Below, in pieces: positions 2,982 through 8,939 of a stretch of DNA of 9,841 nucleotides. The notes under the pieces are model-generated. The model did not search any database, was not told the origin of the DNA, and was given only the letters and a program-made list of their open reading frames with translations. The stretch comes from Candidatus Bipolaricaulis sp. (GTDB lineage: Bacteria; Bipolaricaulota; Bipolaricaulia; Bipolaricaulales; Bipolaricaulaceae): NCBI GenBank assembly GCA_020062805.1, contig JAGUVP010000230.1, forward strand, positions 1 through 9,841, read 5' to 3'. A program made the position numbers and the translations under genes. Each line of letters starts with the position of its first letter. Within the stretch, counting starts at the first letter, position 1.

Positions 2982-3584
2982 TCAGGTCATCGCGCGGTCC
3001 GCTTGCAGGGCTGGGGAGGAGAAGTGGGCTCGGCAGCGCGGCTCGTAGCTCTCCAGTCCCCCGATCAAAACTTCCGGACCTCCTACCACAGGCTTCCCAC
3101 CCACCAGTCGCTGGGATCGGGTAGCCGGCTCGCCACACACGGTGCACACGGCCGACAGCTTGACCGTCTCGTCCGCAAGCGCCAACAGTCCGGGCATCGG
3201 CCCGAACGGCTCGCCGCGGAAGTTCAAATCGAGGCCAGCAACGATGACCCGCTTCCCGATGGACACCAGCCGTTCGCAGAGTTCTGGAAACGACGGGCCG
3301 AAGAAGTTGGCCTCGTCGAACGCGAACACGTCGGTGACGGGTGACGGGTGACCTGTGAGGAGCTGGGAGAACTCGGGCCAAGAGATGTTGGTGGGCAGCC
3401 GGCGGCAGGGCAGCGACCGACCGTAGTGGGTGACCACCTCTTCCACCGCGTACCGGGTGTCGAGCTCAGGTTTGAAGAGGAGCACTTCTTTCTTGGCGAT
3501 GCGCGCCCGCTCCACGCGGCGCAGAAGCTCCTCCGTCTTCCCCGAGAACATGCACCCCGTGACCGCCTCCAGCCGCCCCGCCAT
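2982..3584 (-). CDS. tdk: Thymidine kinase (class II, TK1-like)
   Basis: This 200-residue enzyme matches the family length (about 190-205). It phosphorylates thymidine (or deoxyuridine) with ATP to dTMP in the cytoplasm, a nucleoside salvage step. Visible motifs from ATG 3584: P-loop GCMFSGKTEEL (10-20), LFKPELDTRY (36-45), a DEA box FDEANFF (89-95) with the catalytic Glu91 (most relatives have DEAQFF, so Asn replaces Gln here), GLDLNFRGEPFGPMP (117-131), a zinc site with CTVC (Cys147, Cys150) and CRAH (Cys184, His187), and VVGGPEVLIGGLESYEPRC in the thymidine-binding lasso region. The start at 3584 gives MAGRLEAVTGCMFSGK, the usual N-terminus. An upstream in-frame ATG at 3668 would add 28 unrelated residues and overlap the divergent gene. 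Residues 78-84 (GHPSPVT) are encoded entirely by a 7-bp tandem repeat. Confidence 0.96.
   Translation of the reverse strand: MAGRLEAVTGCMFSGKTEELLRRVERARIAKKEVLLFKPELDTRYAVEEVVTHYGRSLPCRRLPTNISWPEFSQLLTGHPSPVTDVFAFDEANFFGPSFPELCERLVSIGKRVIVAGLDLNFRGEPFGPMPGLLALADETVKLSAVCTVCGEPATRSQRLVGGKPVVGGPEVLIGGLESYEPRCRAHFSSPALQADRAMT
3333..3353. repeat. Heptanucleotide tandem repeat within tdk
   Basis: The plus strand shows three consecutive 7-bp units, GGTGACG, GGTGACG and GGTGACC. They fill exactly 21 bases and encode exactly residues GHPSPVT of the thymidine kinase, just before the beta-strand leading to the catalytic DEA box. Because the unit is not a multiple of three, gain or loss of one copy would shift the tdk frame, while three copies together are frame-neutral. 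It looks like a small microsatellite that expanded into a surface loop. Confidence 0.9.
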
Positions 3585-3593
3585 GACCCGCGG

Positions 3594-3622
3594 ATCGTAG
3601 CCCACGCACCGGCTGCGGCCAA
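3594..3622 (-). promoter_or_regulatory. Candidate tdk promoter (near-leaderless)
   Basis: On the minus strand TTGGCC (3622-3617) and TACGAT (3599-3594) are separated by 17 bases, and the -10 element ends 9 bases before the tdk ATG at 3584. No Shine-Dalgarno precedes that ATG, so the transcript probably starts at or within a few bases of it. It overlaps by only a few bases, back to back, with the divergent promoter-like element at 3625-3653. Confidence 0.5.
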
Positions 3623-3624
3623 GG

Positions 3625-3653
3625 TTGTGCCCTCCCGAAGGGGGTAGTACATT
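3625..3653 (+). promoter_or_regulatory. Candidate promoter of the transporter/nuclease operon
   Basis: TTGTGC (3625-3630) and TACATT (3648-3653) have a 17-base spacer. The -10 ends 13 bases before the permease ATG at 3667, predicting a leader of about 6-7 bases. The spacer holds an imperfect hairpin, CTCCC-gaa-GGGGG, that could also serve as a regulator site. No convincing Shine-Dalgarno is placed before the ATG; the G5 run ends 22 bases upstream. Together with the tdk promoter this makes an 82-base divergent control region. Confidence 0.5.
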
Positions 3654-3666
3654 AGCCCTGGCCAGC

Positions 3667-4527
3667 ATGCAACGGTACCGGGTGAGAGCGGACGTTTATC
3701 TCCTCCGGCGGGGCGCGGGGCTCCTCGTGGTGTACGCGCTGCTGCTGGTCGTTGCGGTGATCATGGCGATGCCGCTCCTGTGGATGCTCAGCACGTCGCT
3801 CAAGGACCTGGTTCAAGCCCTTCGTGTACCCACCCCTGCGAACTGGATCCCCAAACCCGCCTTCTGGGACAACTTTCCGACCGCATGGAACGCAGCTCCG
3901 TTCGCGATCTACTTCTGGAACTCGTTCTTCCTCGCGGTGACGACCACGGTGGGGGACGTGATCACGAGCATCCCCGCCGCCTACGTCCTGGCGAAGATGA
4001 AGTTTCTCGGCCGAGGCTTTCTGCTGGGGCTTCTCCTGGGAACACTGATGATCCCCGGCCAGATGTTGCTGGTGCCGAGCTTCATCCTCATCAACCGCCT
4101 GGGCTGGTACAACACCTACTGGGCGCTCATCATCCCCTGGACCGCGGGGGTGTTCGGGATCTTCCTCCTCCGCCAGTTCTTCAAGACGATTCCCGATGAG
4201 CTGTGGGACTCGGCCCGGATCGACGGGTGCCATCGGCTGCGCTACATCTTCCAGATCGCTGTGCCGCTGGTCCGCCCCGGGATCGCCACCGTGGCCCTGT
4301 TCAAGTTCGTGGGCTCGTGGAACGCGTTCCTGTGGGTGATCATCATGACCGACAAGGTGGGGTTGCGGACCGTGCCCGTGGGACTGAGGTTCTTCATGAT
4401 GGACATCGGCACGGACTACCCACGGCTGATGGCAGCGGCGACGATGGCCATCGTTCCCGTCCTCATCTTGTTCGTGTTCGCCCAACGGCAGTTCATCCAG
4501 GGGATCGCCCGCACGGGGATCAAGTGA
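3667..4527 (+). CDS. Carbohydrate/organophosphate ABC transporter permease, MalG/UgpE type
   Basis: This 286-residue integral membrane protein has the length and six-helix pattern of the MalG/UgpE (CUT1) family, one of two permeases forming the import channel. The first helix is at about 17-40, followed by the typical MPLLWMLSTSLKD exit. Further signatures are WNSFFLAVTTTVGDVITSIPAAYVLAKMKF (84-113), MIPGQMLLVPSFILINRLGWYNTYWALIIP (128-157) and the cytoplasmic EAA loop that docks the ATPase, here DELWDSARIDGCHRLRYIFQIAVPLVRP (177-204) with the conserved Gly187 and Pro200; Asp-Ser-Ala replaces Glu-Ala-Ala. ATG at 3667 gives a normal MalG-like N-terminus; an upstream TTG reading from 3625 adds 14 unlikely residues. 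It is the first gene of the operon, an unusual place for the MalG-type subunit, which normally comes last. The substrate cannot be read from the permease. Confidence 0.93.
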   Translation: MQRYRVRADVYLLRRGAGLLVVYALLLVVAVIMAMPLLWMLSTSLKDLVQALRVPTPANWIPKPAFWDNFPTAWNAAPFAIYFWNSFFLAVTTTVGDVITSIPAAYVLAKMKFLGRGFLLGLLLGTLMIPGQMLLVPSFILINRLGWYNTYWALIIPWTAGVFGIFLLRQFFKTIPDELWDSARIDGCHRLRYIFQIAVPLVRPGIATVALFKFVGSWNAFLWVIIMTDKVGLRTVPVGLRFFMMDIGTDYPRLMAAATMAIVPVLILFVFAQRQFIQGIARTGIK

Positions 4528-4597: not shown

Positions 4598-4602
4598 GGA
4601 GG
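4598..4602 (+). promoter_or_regulatory. Strong Shine-Dalgarno deciding the binding-protein start
   Basis: GGAGG at 4598-4602 ends 8 bases before ATG 4611, an ideal spacing. It rules out the in-frame GTG at 4602, which lies inside the ribosome site itself. It is the best ribosome site in this operon, consistent with the high expression needed for a binding protein. Confidence 0.85.
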
Positions 4603-4610
4603 TGGGTGAC

Positions 4611-5801
4611 ATGCGACGAGTTGCGATAATAGCGTTGGTATGTGCGTTGGGAGTAGGGGCCCTCGGTCAGGTGACGATCAGTTTCTGGCATGCGATGGGC
4701 GGCGCTTTGGGCACGACGTTGACCGAGCTCATCCAGAAGTTCCACGATGAGAACCCGGGGATCACGGTGGACCTGATCCACCAGGGAGGCTATAGCGCTC
4801 TCCAGCAGAAGCTGATTGCGGCGGTGGCGGCAGGCGAGCCTCCAACCCTCGCCCAGCAGTACGAGAACTGGACCACGCTGTGGTTGGATGCGCTGGTGGA
4901 CCTCGACCTGTTCCTCCCGGAGGAGACGCTGGGCAGCTTCCTCCCGCAGTTCGATCAACTGTTTGAGGGACGGATGGTGACGGTGCCGTTCAACAAATCG
5001 ATCCTCGTGCTCTACTACCGGCCGGACCTCGTTCCCAACCCGCCGACCACGTGGGCGGAGTTCGAGACCTACGTCACCGCGATCGGGAAGGATGAGGCGA
5101 AGGGCGTGTATGGGACGGCGTTCCGTCCCCCGAACCCCGAGATCTTCCTGACCCTCCTCACCCAAGCCGGCGGTTCCATCCTGTCCGAGGACTGGTCGGA
5201 GGTCACGATCAACAACGCGACCGGCCTTGAGGCCGCGGAGTTCGCGGCGCGGCTGGCCAAGTACGCCCTGCTTGACAGCGCCTACACTTCGGATGCGATT
5301 CAGAAGGGGATCGCGATCGGGATGTTCATCGACACCTCGGCGGGCTACACCTACAACATGAACGCCGCCAAGACCGCGGGGGTTCCGCTGGCGGTGGCTC
5401 CTCTGCCCTGCTACGTGAACTGCGCGTCGATGATCCAGGGGACAAACCTCGCCGTGTACGCGCCGAAACAGACCCGGGCGCAGATCGAGGCGGCGGCCAA
5501 GGTCATCGCGTTCCTGCTGCGCGAGGACAACACCGCCTACTGGGCTCAGAAGACGGGGTACCTCCCGGTAACGAAGACGGCGATCTACGGCGAGGCGTGG
5601 CAGACGTACATCGCCGATAAGCCTGAGCAGAAGGCAATGACGGAGCAGCTGATCGCCGGTGGGTTCGGCCAACTTCTCCATCCGAGGTACATGGACATGC
5701 GCAGCCTGCTCATCACCTACTGGGAGCTCCTCGTGAAAGGAGAGGACACACCGAAGGCGATCATGGACGCACTCGCTGCGGAGATCGACGCCATCAAGTA
5801 G
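4611..5801 (+). CDS. ABC transporter solute-binding protein, UgpB-like (family 1)
   Basis: This 396-residue secreted protein captures substrate outside the cytoplasmic membrane and delivers it to the two flanking permeases. The N-terminus is a signal peptide: MRR, a hydrophobic core VAIIALVCALGVGAL, and a likely cleavage after Ala-Leu-Gly near residue 19. The single Cys in the core does not sit in a convincing lipobox, so it is probably not a lipoprotein. The mature start, ITISFWHAMGG-like (VTISFWHAMGG, 21-31), and the following IQKFHDENPGITVDLIHQGGYSALQQKL (41-68) resemble UgpB and other family 1 (COG1653) binding proteins. VPFNKSILVLYYRPDLVPNPPTTWAEFE (125-152) is the conserved hinge region. 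Resemblance to UgpB hints at a glycerol-phosphate-type ligand, but many members bind oligosaccharides, so the substrate is unresolved. It lies between its two permeases rather than before them. Confidence 0.93.
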   Translation: MRRVAIIALVCALGVGALGQVTISFWHAMGGALGTTLTELIQKFHDENPGITVDLIHQGGYSALQQKLIAAVAAGEPPTLAQQYENWTTLWLDALVDLDLFLPEETLGSFLPQFDQLFEGRMVTVPFNKSILVLYYRPDLVPNPPTTWAEFETYVTAIGKDEAKGVYGTAFRPPNPEIFLTLLTQAGGSILSEDWSEVTINNATGLEAAEFAARLAKYALLDSAYTSDAIQKGIAIGMFIDTSAGYTYNMNAAKTAGVPLAVAPLPCYVNCASMIQGTNLAVYAPKQTRAQIEAAAKVIAFLLREDNTAYWAQKTGYLPVTKTAIYGEAWQTYIADKPEQKAMTEQLIAGGFGQLLHPRYMDMRSLLITYWELLVKGEDTPKAIMDALAAEIDAIK

Positions 5802-5849: not shown

Positions 5850-7016
5850 ATGAAGCTGCCTACGCTGCGGCAAGGCCGGCGGTTCTGGTGGGACACGTTG
5901 GAGGCGTACGTCTACCTCCTTCCCACCCTCGCTGTGCTGGGGCTGTTCACGTTCTACCCGTTTGTCAACGCGTTCATCTACAGCGTGTACGACATCCGCA
6001 CGCGAACAGTGGCCGGCCCGGTCGTGCACACCACAATGGACAGCACGACATGGGTGACCCCCCTCGCACGGGGCCGGATCCCGGAGGAGCTTGCGGATGC
6101 TTTGCTCAAGCGCGGGGTAGCCCGAGACGGCCTCTGGGTACGTCTGCGTCAGGCCGATCGCTGGGTGATCAAGGACGAGGCATCAGCGCAGGAGTACATC
6201 ATCGTCCGTGAGGGGGAGGAGATCCGTGTGCACTTAGCCACCACGGGCTGGGCGATGGAGTCCGTGGGCTGGGACAACTTCGCCCGGGTGTTCCGCGACC
6301 CGGACTTTGCTAAAGCCCTCCTCAACACGACGATCTACGTAGCGGTAAGCGTTCCGACGACCCTGCTCCTGGCCCTTCTTCTGGCCACGCTGCTCAACCG
6401 AGCGGTGCGCGGGAAGGCGCTATTCCGGCTGGCGAGCTTCCTCCCCTACATCACCCCCATCGTGGCCATCACCATGGTCTGGGCGTGGATCTATGATCGG
6501 AATTACGGTCTCCTCAACTACTTCCTGGGCACGGTCGCCGGGTGGTTCGGTGCGGAGTTCAACCTCATCAACTGGCTCAACGACCCGCGGTGGACGAAGC
6601 CCGCTCTGATCATCATGAGCGTGTGGCGGTTCATGGGGTACCAGGCCCTGATTCTGCTCGCCGGGATGCAGGGGATCGACCGCGAGTACTACGAGGCGGC
6701 GCGGGTGGACGGAGCCGGCCCCCTTGCAGTGTGGCGGAAGATCACTGTCCCCATGGTTACCCCACAGATGTTCTTCCTCTTGATCATCTCCCTTATCGGT
6801 TCGTTCAAGATCTTCGAGGAGGTGCTCATCCTCCTTCAAGGACCTGGCCCCCAGAAATCGGCCTTGACCGTCGTGTACTACGTGTTCACCAAGGCGTTCG
6901 ACTCTGGGCACTACGGACTCGCTTCCGCCGCCTCGGTGATCTTGTTCGCCGTCATCTTCGCCTTGTCGCTGTTCCAGCTCACTGTGGTTCAGAAACGGGT
7001 GCACTACGAACGCTAA
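5850..7016 (+). CDS. ABC transporter permease, MalF/UgpA type, with an extracytoplasmic insertion
   Basis: This 388-residue partner of the MalG-type permease is about 90 residues longer than the usual 290-300 for UgpA-type subunits. Helix 1 lies at about 20-45 (YVYLLPTLAVLGLFTFYPFVNAF region). Residues about 49-136 are hydrophilic and unlike the family core, which resumes at VGWDNFARVFRDPDFAKALLNT (139-160). Later signatures are LPYITPIVAITMVWAWIYDRNYGLLN (198-223), the EAA loop YYEAARVDGAGPLAVWRKITVPMVTP (280-305) with a full Glu-Ala-Ala and Gly288, and a last helix at about 361-380. The insertion sits between helix 1 and the next core helix, the same topological place as the P2 loop of E. 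coli MalF, which touches the binding protein. ATG 5850 is preceded by the hairpin and no close Shine-Dalgarno. No methionine occurs again until residue 63, beyond helix 1, so this start is favoured. Confidence 0.92.
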   Translation: MKLPTLRQGRRFWWDTLEAYVYLLPTLAVLGLFTFYPFVNAFIYSVYDIRTRTVAGPVVHTTMDSTTWVTPLARGRIPEELADALLKRGVARDGLWVRLRQADRWVIKDEASAQEYIIVREGEEIRVHLATTGWAMESVGWDNFARVFRDPDFAKALLNTTIYVAVSVPTTLLLALLLATLLNRAVRGKALFRLASFLPYITPIVAITMVWAWIYDRNYGLLNYFLGTVAGWFGAEFNLINWLNDPRWTKPALIIMSVWRFMGYQALILLAGMQGIDREYYEAARVDGAGPLAVWRKITVPMVTPQMFFLLIISLIGSFKIFEEVLILLQGPGPQKSALTVVYYVFTKAFDSGHYGLASAASVILFAVIFALSLFQLTVVQKRVHYER

Positions 7017-7025
7017 GGGGGGGCC

Positions 7026-8939
7026 ATGTTGACGAAGCTTTGGGGGCTTCTGCTGATCGTCGCGGTAGGCACAGGCATCGCGATGGCCCAGCCGCCGGCG
7101 GGAAGCGTCGCGGCTCGCATCACCCGCTGGGTGGACGGAGACACGGTGGAAGTGCGCCTGCTCGATGCTGTACCGGGTCTCGGCTCGTGGGAACGGGTGC
7201 GGCTCCTTGGGATTGATGCCCCGGAACTCGGGGAGCGGTGGGCCGATGAGGCGACACGGTTCCTACGGGAGATGACGATGGGCAAGACCGTCCACCTTGA
7301 GTTGGACCGACAGGTGCGCGACACCCACAGCCGCCTGCTTGCCCACGTGTGGGTGGAGGGCGGTAGCGGATGGTTGCTGACCGGGGAAGAACTGCTTCTC
7401 GCAGGACTCGCCAGGACGTTGTTCATCCCCCCCAACGCCGTGTACCAGAGCCGGTTCCAGCGTGCCCAACGGCTTGCGCAAGCGTTCTGTCGGGGGTTGT
7501 GGCAGACGGCCTGCGTCATCCTGGATGTGGACGATGTCGAGGCTGATCCCGTATCGTACGTGACGGATGCTGTCTCCGTGCGGTTCGTGCTGGGCTACTG
7601 GGAGAAAAGGAGCGATGGGCGATGGGTCCTCCATGCGGCCGGCTCACGCTATGGGTTCCACGTGATCCTCACCCCTGAGCTAGGGACAGATCTTGAGGGG
7701 GATCTGGTGCGGTCCCTCGGCCGGCCGGTGATCGTCCGCGGGGTGTTGGGTTGGCTGGACCGCCGTGGCCCGTTCGTGGAAGTCGACGTCGCGGAGCAGA
7801 TCGAGTTACCCGAGGGCTGGCCTGCTCTTCCTTTCGTGCACGGCCCGTACAGCGGCGCGCCGGCGTCCACGGAGGCTACCGTGTCCTGGACCGCGGAGCG
7901 TCCCTTGTCCGGCCGGGTGGAGTACGGACCGTGGGAGACCTTCGTCGCCTCGGCATCGTTGGAGTTAACCCAGGAGCATGCGCAGGGGAGTTCCTCTGGC
8001 CGGGAGACCGTGCACCTCCGGCTTCGCGGCCTGGAACCGGGAACCCGCTATGCCTACCGGGTGGTCCTCGACGAAGACACCGCAAGCTGGACGAGCCCGG
8101 TGGGGACCTTTGCCACAGCGCCCGTTGCTGGAGAGCCGGTGGCGTTCGCTGTGATTGCGGATACCCAGTGGCAATGGGACGGGGTGAACCGCATCCAGCT
8201 CGTCGGTGATGCGCTGGCGACCGACCCCACCCCCTTTCAGTTCATCCTTCACGCGGGGGATCTCGTAGAGAGCCCGATCCCCCGGTACTGGGATCATCTG
8301 TTTGCATCGCTGTCCGGGGCACTCCTTCGGGCCCCGTTCCTGCCTGTGCTGGGCAACCACGAGCGTAACAGCGTTACCTACTACCGGGCGTTCGACCTCC
8401 CACCTGGGGGAGGGCAGGAGGGAAAGCGGTGGTGGGCCCTCGAGTTCGGCGACGTGATCGTGGTGGGGCTGGACACGAACGTGACGCGACCCCAGGAATT
8501 CCATGACCAGATTGAGTTCGTCCGGGAACGGATGTCCGGCGACTTCGCCTGCCGGTTCGTGATCTTCCACCACCCGGTGTTCTCCTCCGATGCCATCTAC
8601 GGGCCGGGAGGAGAGGGGCTGCAGGTTCTGTGGCACCCTGTGTTTGTCGAGCTGGGCGTGGACATCGTCTTCGCAGGGCACGCGCACAACTACGAGCGGA
8701 TCGAACGGGATGGGGTGACCTACCTCGTGGTGGGCGGGGGGGGGGCGACCCTGCGACCGCTTGCCGAGGAACGTCTCGAGGGATCCCAGGTCGGCCACGA
8801 CGACCGCCACTTCTACGTGCGGGTGATCGTGGCGCCGGATGGCATTCGGATGGTGGCCGTCGTTGTTGCACGGCAGCTCGACGACAGCGTCGTCCTGAGC
8901 CCGGAGCTGCTCGATGCGTTCACTCTGCCCAGGAAGTGA
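7026..8939 (+). CDS. Secreted nuclease-phosphoesterase fusion (SNase + OB-like + FnIII + calcineurin-like phosphoesterase)
   Basis: This 637-residue exported protein starts with a signal peptide (cleavage probably AMA-QP near residue 21). Residues about 29-165 form a staphylococcal-nuclease domain with all five catalytic positions: Asp39 in VDGDTV, Arg59, Asp64 and Glu67 in RLLGIDAPE, and Arg103 in DTHSRLLAHV. Residues about 175-262 look like an OB-fold (GRPVIVRGVLGWLDRRGPFVEV, then EQIEL). Residues about 268-366 resemble the purple-acid-phosphatase N-terminal FnIII domain (TVSWTAERPLSGRVEYG; LRGLEPGTRYAYRV). Residues 371-637 are a metallophosphoesterase: ADTQ (Asp379), GDLV (Asp412), GNHE (Asn444, His445), FHHPVFSS (His515/516) and GHAHNYER (His552, His554). 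The first motif has Gln where DxH has His, and the Tyr of plant-type purple acid phosphatases is Glu415. It likely cleaves nucleic acid and removes phosphate outside the cell. The start follows an AGGGGGGG ribosome site, 9 bases after the permease stop. Confidence 0.9.
   Translation: MLTKLWGLLLIVAVGTGIAMAQPPAGSVAARITRWVDGDTVEVRLLDAVPGLGSWERVRLLGIDAPELGERWADEATRFLREMTMGKTVHLELDRQVRDTHSRLLAHVWVEGGSGWLLTGEELLLAGLARTLFIPPNAVYQSRFQRAQRLAQAFCRGLWQTACVILDVDDVEADPVSYVTDAVSVRFVLGYWEKRSDGRWVLHAAGSRYGFHVILTPELGTDLEGDLVRSLGRPVIVRGVLGWLDRRGPFVEVDVAEQIELPEGWPALPFVHGPYSGAPASTEATVSWTAERPLSGRVEYGPWETFVASASLELTQEHAQGSSSGRETVHLRLRGLEPGTRYAYRVVLDEDTASWTSPVGTFATAPVAGEPVAFAVIADTQWQWDGVNRIQLVGDALATDPTPFQFILHAGDLVESPIPRYWDHLFASLSGALLRAPFLPVLGNHERNSVTYYRAFDLPPGGGQEGKRWWALEFGDVIVVGLDTNVTRPQEFHDQIEFVRERMSGDFACRFVIFHHPVFSSDAIYGPGGEGLQVLWHPVFVELGVDIVFAGHAHNYERIERDGVTYLVVGGGGATLRPLAEERLEGSQVGHDDRHFYVRVIVAPDGIRMVAVVVARQLDDSVVLSPELLDAFTLPRK
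8736..8745. repeat. G10 homopolymer inside the phosphoesterase coding region
   Basis: Ten consecutive G encode most of the Gly-Gly-Gly-Gly stretch (residues 570-573) in LVVGGGGATL, a loop common near the end of this phosphoesterase fold. One-base slippage would alter or remove about the last 65 residues, although all metal-ligand motifs lie upstream. It is also a likely site of assembly error; the intact downstream frame ending HFYVRV...DAFTLP argues that the present count is right. Confidence 0.85.

Follow-up and report, generated by a model that had tools for sequence, protein, structure and literature searches.

Why would a bacterium join a nuclease and a phosphatase in one polypeptide, and what would such a protein do beside a nutrient importer? 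The question is raised by the 9,841-nucleotide contig JAGUVP010000230.1 of Candidatus Bipolaricaulis sp. (assembly GCA_020062805.1), referred to below as the window, i.e. the whole stretch of DNA that was analysed. In it, a gene encoding a fused staphylococcal nuclease (SNase) and metallophosphoesterase is the last of a row encoding an ATP-binding cassette (ABC) importer of the CUT1 type, from which a thymidine kinase gene diverges. We consider it probable that the fused protein, the importer row and the thymidine kinase together constitute a set for the scavenging of extracellular nucleic acids.

The fused gene and its split counterparts

The fused protein of 637 amino acids is encoded by one open reading frame, ATG to TGA, with the following features (Pfam domain calls are above curated cut-offs):

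7026..8939 (+): fused SNase / beta domain / FnIII / metallophosphoesterase gene, 637 amino acids (Pfam and relatives)
7026..7088 (+): signal-peptide-like start, residues 1-21, ending AMA (judged from the sequence)
7098..7505 (+): staphylococcal nuclease domain, residues 25-160 (Pfam match 57-160)
7518..7811 (+): middle beta domain, residues 165-262, OB-like by topology only (secondary structure of the model; no Pfam match)
7857..8117 (+): FnIII-type domain as at the N-terminus of purple acid phosphatases, residues 278-364 (Pfam PF16656, 43.1 bits)
8145..8936 (+): calcineurin-like phosphoesterase domain, residues 374-637 (Pfam match 374-556)

A sequence-only reading of this DNA had described a single polypeptide with SNase, FnIII and phosphoesterase domains behind a signal peptide, a description borne out by the reading frame, the Pfam matches and the full-length relatives reported below. 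The SNase family PF00565 matches residues 57-160 with 51.7 bits (cut-off 21), Pur_ac_phosph_N residues 278-364 with 43.1 bits (cut-off 30) and Metallophos residues 374-556 with 50.1 bits (cut-off 21.5), while no match to the C-terminal domain of 5'-nucleotidases (5_nucleotid_C) was obtained at E 0.01 and the C-terminus carries no sorting signal in its sequence. Residues 1-21 are hydrophobic with AMA at their end and, given this signal-peptide look, the protein is predicted to be exported. The SNase fold is present, as are the FnIII and calcineurin-like catalytic unit of the plant purple-acid-phosphatase type; the top structural matches of the latter are purple acid phosphatases spanning the whole unit, with the diesterases GpdQ and Rv0805 among the lower-ranked ones. 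As to the middle domain, previously called OB-like, an AlphaFold model of residues 1-262 (predicted local distance difference test score 94.9) arranges residues 165-262 as strand-strand-strand-helix-strand-strand, a topology which fits an OB barrel; assignment to a known family or fold did not follow, as a Pfam scan of residues 165-267 came back empty up to E 10 and the matches in a fold comparison of the model were all taken by the SNase domain, none reaching residues 165-262.

The five SNase residues named in the earlier reading (Asp39, Arg59, Asp64, Glu67 and Arg103) are all present and align with S. aureus nuclease D21, R35, D40, E43 and R87. Among 26 nucleases from the window and the loci of relatives (8 fused, 18 separate), the equivalents of D21, R35, E43 and R87 (D39, R59, E67 and R103) are kept in every one. 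A corresponding comparison of 21 phosphoesterases (6 fused, 15 from split pairs) revealed that D379, D412, N444, H515, H552 and H554, the metal-ligand positions, are kept in all 21, and Q381 and E415 in 20 each, with G029 as the exception. The earlier likening to purple acid phosphatases holds for the FnIII/catalytic fold and the best structural matches and fails at one position: where those enzymes carry their Fe(III)-binding Tyr, the alignment places Glu415 in the fusion (20 of 21 rows have Glu, the other has Thr). Membership among the purple acid phosphatases proper was therefore rejected, and because of Glu415 the phosphoesterase is likely not purple and may employ Mn, Zn or Fe(II). Judged by conserved residues both catalytic domains look intact, which counters the concern, voiced in the same reading, that one of them might be inactive.

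Related fused proteins were sought among 5.8 billion proteins; of the 7,990 candidates that were scored, 137 reached E 1e-10, and 120 of these are listed. Among the matches listed, full-length fused relatives form at least 14 protein clusters at 57-96% identity, and the three that carry an organism name are all from Bipolaricaulota. In a survey of 100 Bipolaricaulota genomes (counts by eye, matches to E 1e-20), the fused protein was matched in 68. The fusion itself occurs in eight, being full-length in G000, G010, G004, G009, G016 and G021 and cut by contig ends in G002 and G014, and the two halves are adjacent genes in the same order and on the same strand in 18. An assembly join of two genes, which the sequence-only reading had allowed for, is rejected because full-length fusions recur across genomes and protein clusters, i.e. 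in six genomes, including the single-contig G009, and in at least 14 clusters. An apparent stop inside the fused copy of G021 was also dismissed, as it lies upstream of the start used and the frame is open from there, and a further fusion in G081 was rejected as an open reading frame running on across the upstream gene.

The spacing of the split genes was determined by candidate phosphatase starts in 15 pairs: the nuclease stop and phosphatase start overlap by 4 bases in nine, lie 1-2 bases apart in three and 28-32 bases apart in two, while in G034 the phosphatase start is ambiguous, so no spacing was assigned. With the exception of G034, the split phosphatases have a hydrophobic, signal-like N-terminal stretch of their own (by eye), and the fused copies are devoid of such a stretch at the nuclease-phosphatase junction. 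In trees built from each half (with 32 and 34 rows, comprising genome rows and 8 of the 14 listed proteins, with three further phosphatases in the first tree), the fused rows occupy one side of a branch, with support of 87/100 and 85/86, which is compatible with, and does not prove, a single origin of the fusion. The split pair of G007 adjoins the fused rows in the phosphatase tree and groups with G006 in the nuclease tree, and because of this differing placement its halves may have separate histories. From these sequence comparisons, the fusion is genuine and inherited. Pieces of the fused gene, with 90 and 85% identity, lie on the contigs DYGJ01000004.1 (L022) and DYGJ01000011.1 (L024), whose label 'Thermotoga sp.' is probably wrong. 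G078 has two copies of the module's nuclease (L078:1504-3711 (-)), of which one, of 736 amino acids, bears a long leucine-rich-repeat tail, another lineage-specific extension.

The importer row and its possible ligand

The genes upstream of the fusion are:

5850..7016 (+): UgpA-like second permease of the CUT1 importer, separated from the fused gene by 9 bases
4602..5801 (+): importer solute-binding protein, UgpB-like (best solved-structure match in the 7C0V/7C0F series)
3625..4527 (+): first CUT1 importer permease, UgpE-like (PF00528, 70.4 bits; best NCBIfam match UgpE, below cut-off; start probably 3667)
3585..3666 (no strand): divergent gap between the likely thymidine kinase and importer starts (from start candidates)
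2982..3668 (-): thymidine kinase, divergent from the importer (PF00265, 144.9 bits; start probably 3584)

The gap at 3585..3666 may contain a shared promoter region. In all 35 loci (35 genomes) holding the nuclease, which were picked by matches to the fused protein and not to the permease, the nuclease gene follows that of the second permease on the same strand; these include eight genomes of family f2 (G042, G054, G078, G080, G081, G084, G092 and G093). Conservation falls off faster for other neighbours in the window: over 23 loci, near-copies being left out, BLAST at E 1e-8 found counterparts of the importer genes in 22 each, of the thymidine kinase in 17, of SufC in eight and of the ABC2 gene of L025 in one other locus, counts which may include non-orthologous relatives.

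The best NCBIfam names for the importer are parts of glycerol-3-phosphate importers, and the UgpB, UgpA and UgpE matches all fall far below the equivalog cut-offs (for the binding protein against UgpB NF008211, 88.7 bits versus 411). The best solved matches of the binding protein are the 7C0F-7C1B series, in which ten variants have 406 residues and score 123-129 bits and one has 380 residues, whereas the UgpB entry 4AQ4 reaches 73 bits against up to 129 for that series. The series presumably comprises mutants of a dinucleotide-binding protein of Thermus thermophilus; its Tyr-to-Ala changes (chain positions 226 and 248) agree, at an offset of two, with the presumed entry titles, and a search of the open-licence literature for the PDB codes found nothing relevant. 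The motifs DTSAGYTY and QGTNL are common to the window's binding protein and the 7C0F protein, whereas E. coli UgpB differs there.

According to PMC12718374, UgpB counts among its close relatives a glycerophosphocholine binder and a U3G-binding protein of T. thermophilus; all three conserve the two Tyr and the two Ser by which the phosphate is coordinated, and in UgpB a pair of Trp clamps the glycerol part of glycerol phosphate. In an alignment to E. coli UgpB, with residues as named in that source, the window's binding protein keeps the Tyr/Ser/Ser/Tyr set (Y64, S133, S246 and Y320), which is common to the UgpB, glycerophosphocholine and U3G binders and hence not specific to the dinucleotide type, as well as the Glu, Gly and Arg of UgpB (E88, G280 and R367). 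The two-Trp clamp is absent, being replaced by F174 and a gap, and neither clamp column contains a Trp in the 34 proteins or pieces aligned. With the equivalog cut-offs missed and the clamp absent, a UgpB system was rejected. Because the Tyr/Ser set is kept, the clamp is absent and DTSAGYTY and QGTNL are held in common with the 7C0F protein, the comparison favours a phosphate-bearing ligand larger than glycerol phosphate, for which a dinucleotide would be the natural guess given the adjacent nuclease.

Further genes occur around the row in relatives. On the thymidine kinase side, an ABC importer of the NMT1/THI5 type (ATPase, permease and binding protein) is found in many (L036:375-2940 (-), L058, L076 and others), its substrate being perhaps a pyrimidine-like compound. 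A second SNase-like gene lies on the same side in L039:348-1142 (-), L032:1052-2107 (-), L066:5416-6270 (+), L067:4789-5598 (-), L068:4097-4903 (-) and L069:9410-9918 (+). When ten rows of it were aligned, all five catalytic residues were present in four (L066-L069, directly behind the thymidine kinase) and the other six, without D21, D40 and E43, look dead; in G023, G019, G035 and G012 the thymidine kinase is followed by such a gene with the five residues intact. Behind the module, G007 encodes a GH57 / glucodextranase-C protein and a MalE-like binding protein (L032:9597-13768), with open reading frames of similar size in other genus g1 loci; these genes are probably a separate starch-type cluster.

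A proposed route from extracellular DNA to thymidylate

SNase family enzymes are Ca-dependent and cut DNA and RNA to 3'-phosphorylated products. In a scavenging set of this kind, the nuclease domain would cut DNA or RNA outside the cytoplasm to 3'-phosphorylated mono- and dinucleotides, from which the phosphoesterase domain would strip the terminal 3'-phosphate to yield nucleosides and dinucleoside monophosphates. Import of the resulting nucleosides and dinucleotides would fall to the binding protein and permeases, whose ATPase is probably encoded at another locus, and in the cytoplasm the thymidine kinase would, by the function of its family, convert thymidine to deoxythymidine monophosphate (dTMP). 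The gene order, the fusion, the conservation of neighbours and residues and the predicted folds are established, and it is from these that we infer the function. Coupled action of nuclease and phosphatase becomes much more likely because related species encode these two proteins by adjacent genes; the two-step action proposed in the sequence-only reading thereby gains from the genuine fusion and the split pairs, and is altered in that it would form part of an importer row beside a thymidine kinase rather than the two steps of one enzyme alone.

The thymidine kinase scores 212.8 bits against the NCBIfam equivalog NF003296 (cut-off 183). Of the 60 genomes searched for co-occurrence, 42 contain the binding protein; the thymidine kinase accompanies it in 38 of these, within 5 kb in 28; in G005 and G008 the kinase gene lies just downstream of the phosphatase gene on the same strand, not divergent. 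The thymidylate synthase ThyA was detected in 3 of the 100 genomes and ThyX in 57 (55 over cut-off). Neither is over cut-off in 42, for which salvage dependence, incomplete genomes and an unrecognised thymidylate synthase are alternative explanations. Among the 60 genomes, all 18 with no ThyX or ThyA match match thymidine kinase (G047 with a piece of 150 bases) and all 11 lacking the kinase have ThyX, a count that takes ThyX as present in G045 and G002, where its match is weak or partial; Fisher's test of synthase absence against kinase presence, with relatedness ignored, gave p 0.024. The single-contig G005, whose nuclease is identical at 253 of 261 positions to one named Ca. Bipolaricaulis anaerobius, has neither a ThyA nor a ThyX match. 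Pyrimidine nucleoside phosphorylase, which 77 of the 100 genomes have and for which the window's own genome (73% complete) gave no match, is compatible with nucleoside use and not specific to the module.

A bolder proposal can be advanced tentatively, and with considerable doubt: that an exported nuclease-3'-phosphatase, in one lineage a single fused protein, supplies a CUT1 dinucleotide/nucleoside importer and, where ThyA and ThyX are both missing as in the species of G005, provides with the thymidine kinase the sole route to dTMP, making these organisms obligate scavengers of the DNA of other cells. Nucleic-acid scavenging, if true, would explain by what means a candidate phylum of global distribution could use extracellular DNA as food and would assign a substrate to an importer now labelled as being of the glycerol-3-phosphate or sugar type. 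It would also predict thymidine dependence in some species, suggesting thymidine or DNA for enrichment media, and the fusion would represent a ready two-step enzyme for obtaining nucleosides from DNA.

Several observations weigh against the scavenging of nucleic acids or against thymidine dependence. Nuclease and phosphatase are both present and apart in 13 of 100 genomes, a count in which contig ends may hide some pairs. In G048 (L054) and G017 (L065) the importer is followed by the phosphatase with no nuclease between, G048 having two phosphatase copies, so the phosphatase can partner the importer alone, and the importer loci L060-L064 and L079 (family f5 and others) have neither enzyme. The conserved order within two related families may partly reflect inheritance. 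The D40 equivalent (D64) is Asn in 8 of the 26 nucleases (the fused G004 and G003, G030, G028, G032, G034, G011 and G020). The 7C0F series is presumed to be the dinucleotide binder, and one Tyr mutated in that series is Ala232 in the window's binding protein. Binding protein and thymidine kinase are on different contigs in 10 of the 38 genomes having both. ThyX is encoded in the window's own genome, which thus need not rely on thymidine, and the dependence argument is weakened by genome incompleteness and by a possible unrecognised synthase. Finally, the retrieved passages of a subseafloor-genome study name other phyla, and not Bipolaricaulota, as holders of DNA-degradation genes (PMC9979476).

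A serious rival, which we nonetheless judge to be rather unlikely, is that the set responds to phosphate starvation, with the nuclease, the phosphatase and an importer of the glycerol-phosphate type gaining phosphate or glycerol phosphate for the cell and not nucleosides. It may hold alongside nucleic-acid scavenging, because phosphate removal yields both products. The short distance between thymidine kinase and binding protein in 28 of 38 genomes, rearranged in two, speaks against it, as do the low UgpB/UgpA/UgpE scores and the Trp-free clamp columns described above, and no Pst or Pho gene occurs among the 18 window and neighbour proteins run through Pfam, a set that left most neighbours unclassified. 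It is improbable that the two domains are coupled only through shared export or expression, the nuclease acting on DNA and the phosphoesterase on another substrate such as a phosphodiester or a phospholipid head group. The 13 genomes with the enzymes apart, the nuclease-free loci of G048 and G017 and the lower-ranked diesterase matches would suit such an arrangement; repeated adjacency, stop/start overlap and eventual fusion would not, and the best structural matches over the whole FnIII and catalytic unit are to purple acid phosphatases. A role in clearing biofilm DNA or against phage or rival DNA, known for secreted nucleases of some bacteria, is very improbable here, as the constant place behind the importer permease and the frequent nearby thymidine kinase point to uptake.

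Comparison with known systems

The proposed nucleic-acid scavenging set combines familiar ideas. YhcR of B. subtilis (Oussenko et al. 2004) is reportedly an exported SNase joined to a calcineurin-like metallophosphatase/nucleotidase, and the window protein, as predicted from its sequence, would likewise be an exported SNase and metallophosphatase in one. Passages on YhcR mention OB folds, a nuclease, a sortase motif and a 5'-nucleotidase domain (PMC4118848, PMC12445088, PMC12020853); unlike YhcR as described there, with its 5'-nucleotidase C-terminal domain and sortase motif, the window protein possesses the purple-acid-phosphatase-type FnIII, with no 5_nucleotid_C match and no sorting signal. 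The sequence-only reading did not know of its exact architecture as a described enzyme, and no SNase / purple acid phosphatase fusion was found in the open-licence literature, judged by titles and abstract starts of the best matches; the general pairing of nuclease and metallophosphatase has its precedent in YhcR.

The DNA-degrading loci of Izemoplasmatales (Wasmund et al. 2021, PMC8289736) similarly unite extracellular nucleases, phosphohydrolases and ABC importers, for which the authors infer nucleoside or nucleobase import; they belong to a different phylum, and the passages retrieved mention neither an SNase-phosphatase fusion nor a thymidine kinase beside the importer. The Mycoplasma bovis importer MBOVPG45_0748 is annotated as of the glycerol / glycerol-3-phosphate type, and metabolomics of a mutant indicated reduced uptake of nucleosides including thymidine, according to PMC12838404; unlike in the window, the nuclease MnuA and a 5'-nucleotidase are separate proteins there and no fused nuclease-phosphatase is described. 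In Staphylococcus aureus, Nuc and AdsA jointly make deoxyadenosine from DNA, like the proposed two-step action, but as two proteins with a role against host immune cells, and no importer gene row is mentioned in the passages of PMC8960049 concerned.

If the 7C0F series is the Thermus U3G binder, as we presume, the stretches QGGY, PFNKSI.VLYY, DTSAGYTY, QGTNL and TGY.PVT are common to it and the window's binding protein, which differs from it at Ala232. The T. thermophilus dinucleotide (U3G) binding protein of Chandravanshi et al. (2021), as described in PMC12718374, is likewise a CUT1 binding protein close to UgpB. A word search of two Bipolaricaulota papers found no account of a nuclease/nucleoside/thymidine set. 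While the joining of SNase to metallophosphatase (YhcR) and the nuclease-phosphohydrolase-ABC loci of Izemoplasmatales are known ideas, what is new, as far as the literature search reaches, is the combination of domains, its descent from two conserved neighbouring genes and its link to a UgpB-type importer and thymidine kinase in Bipolaricaulota.
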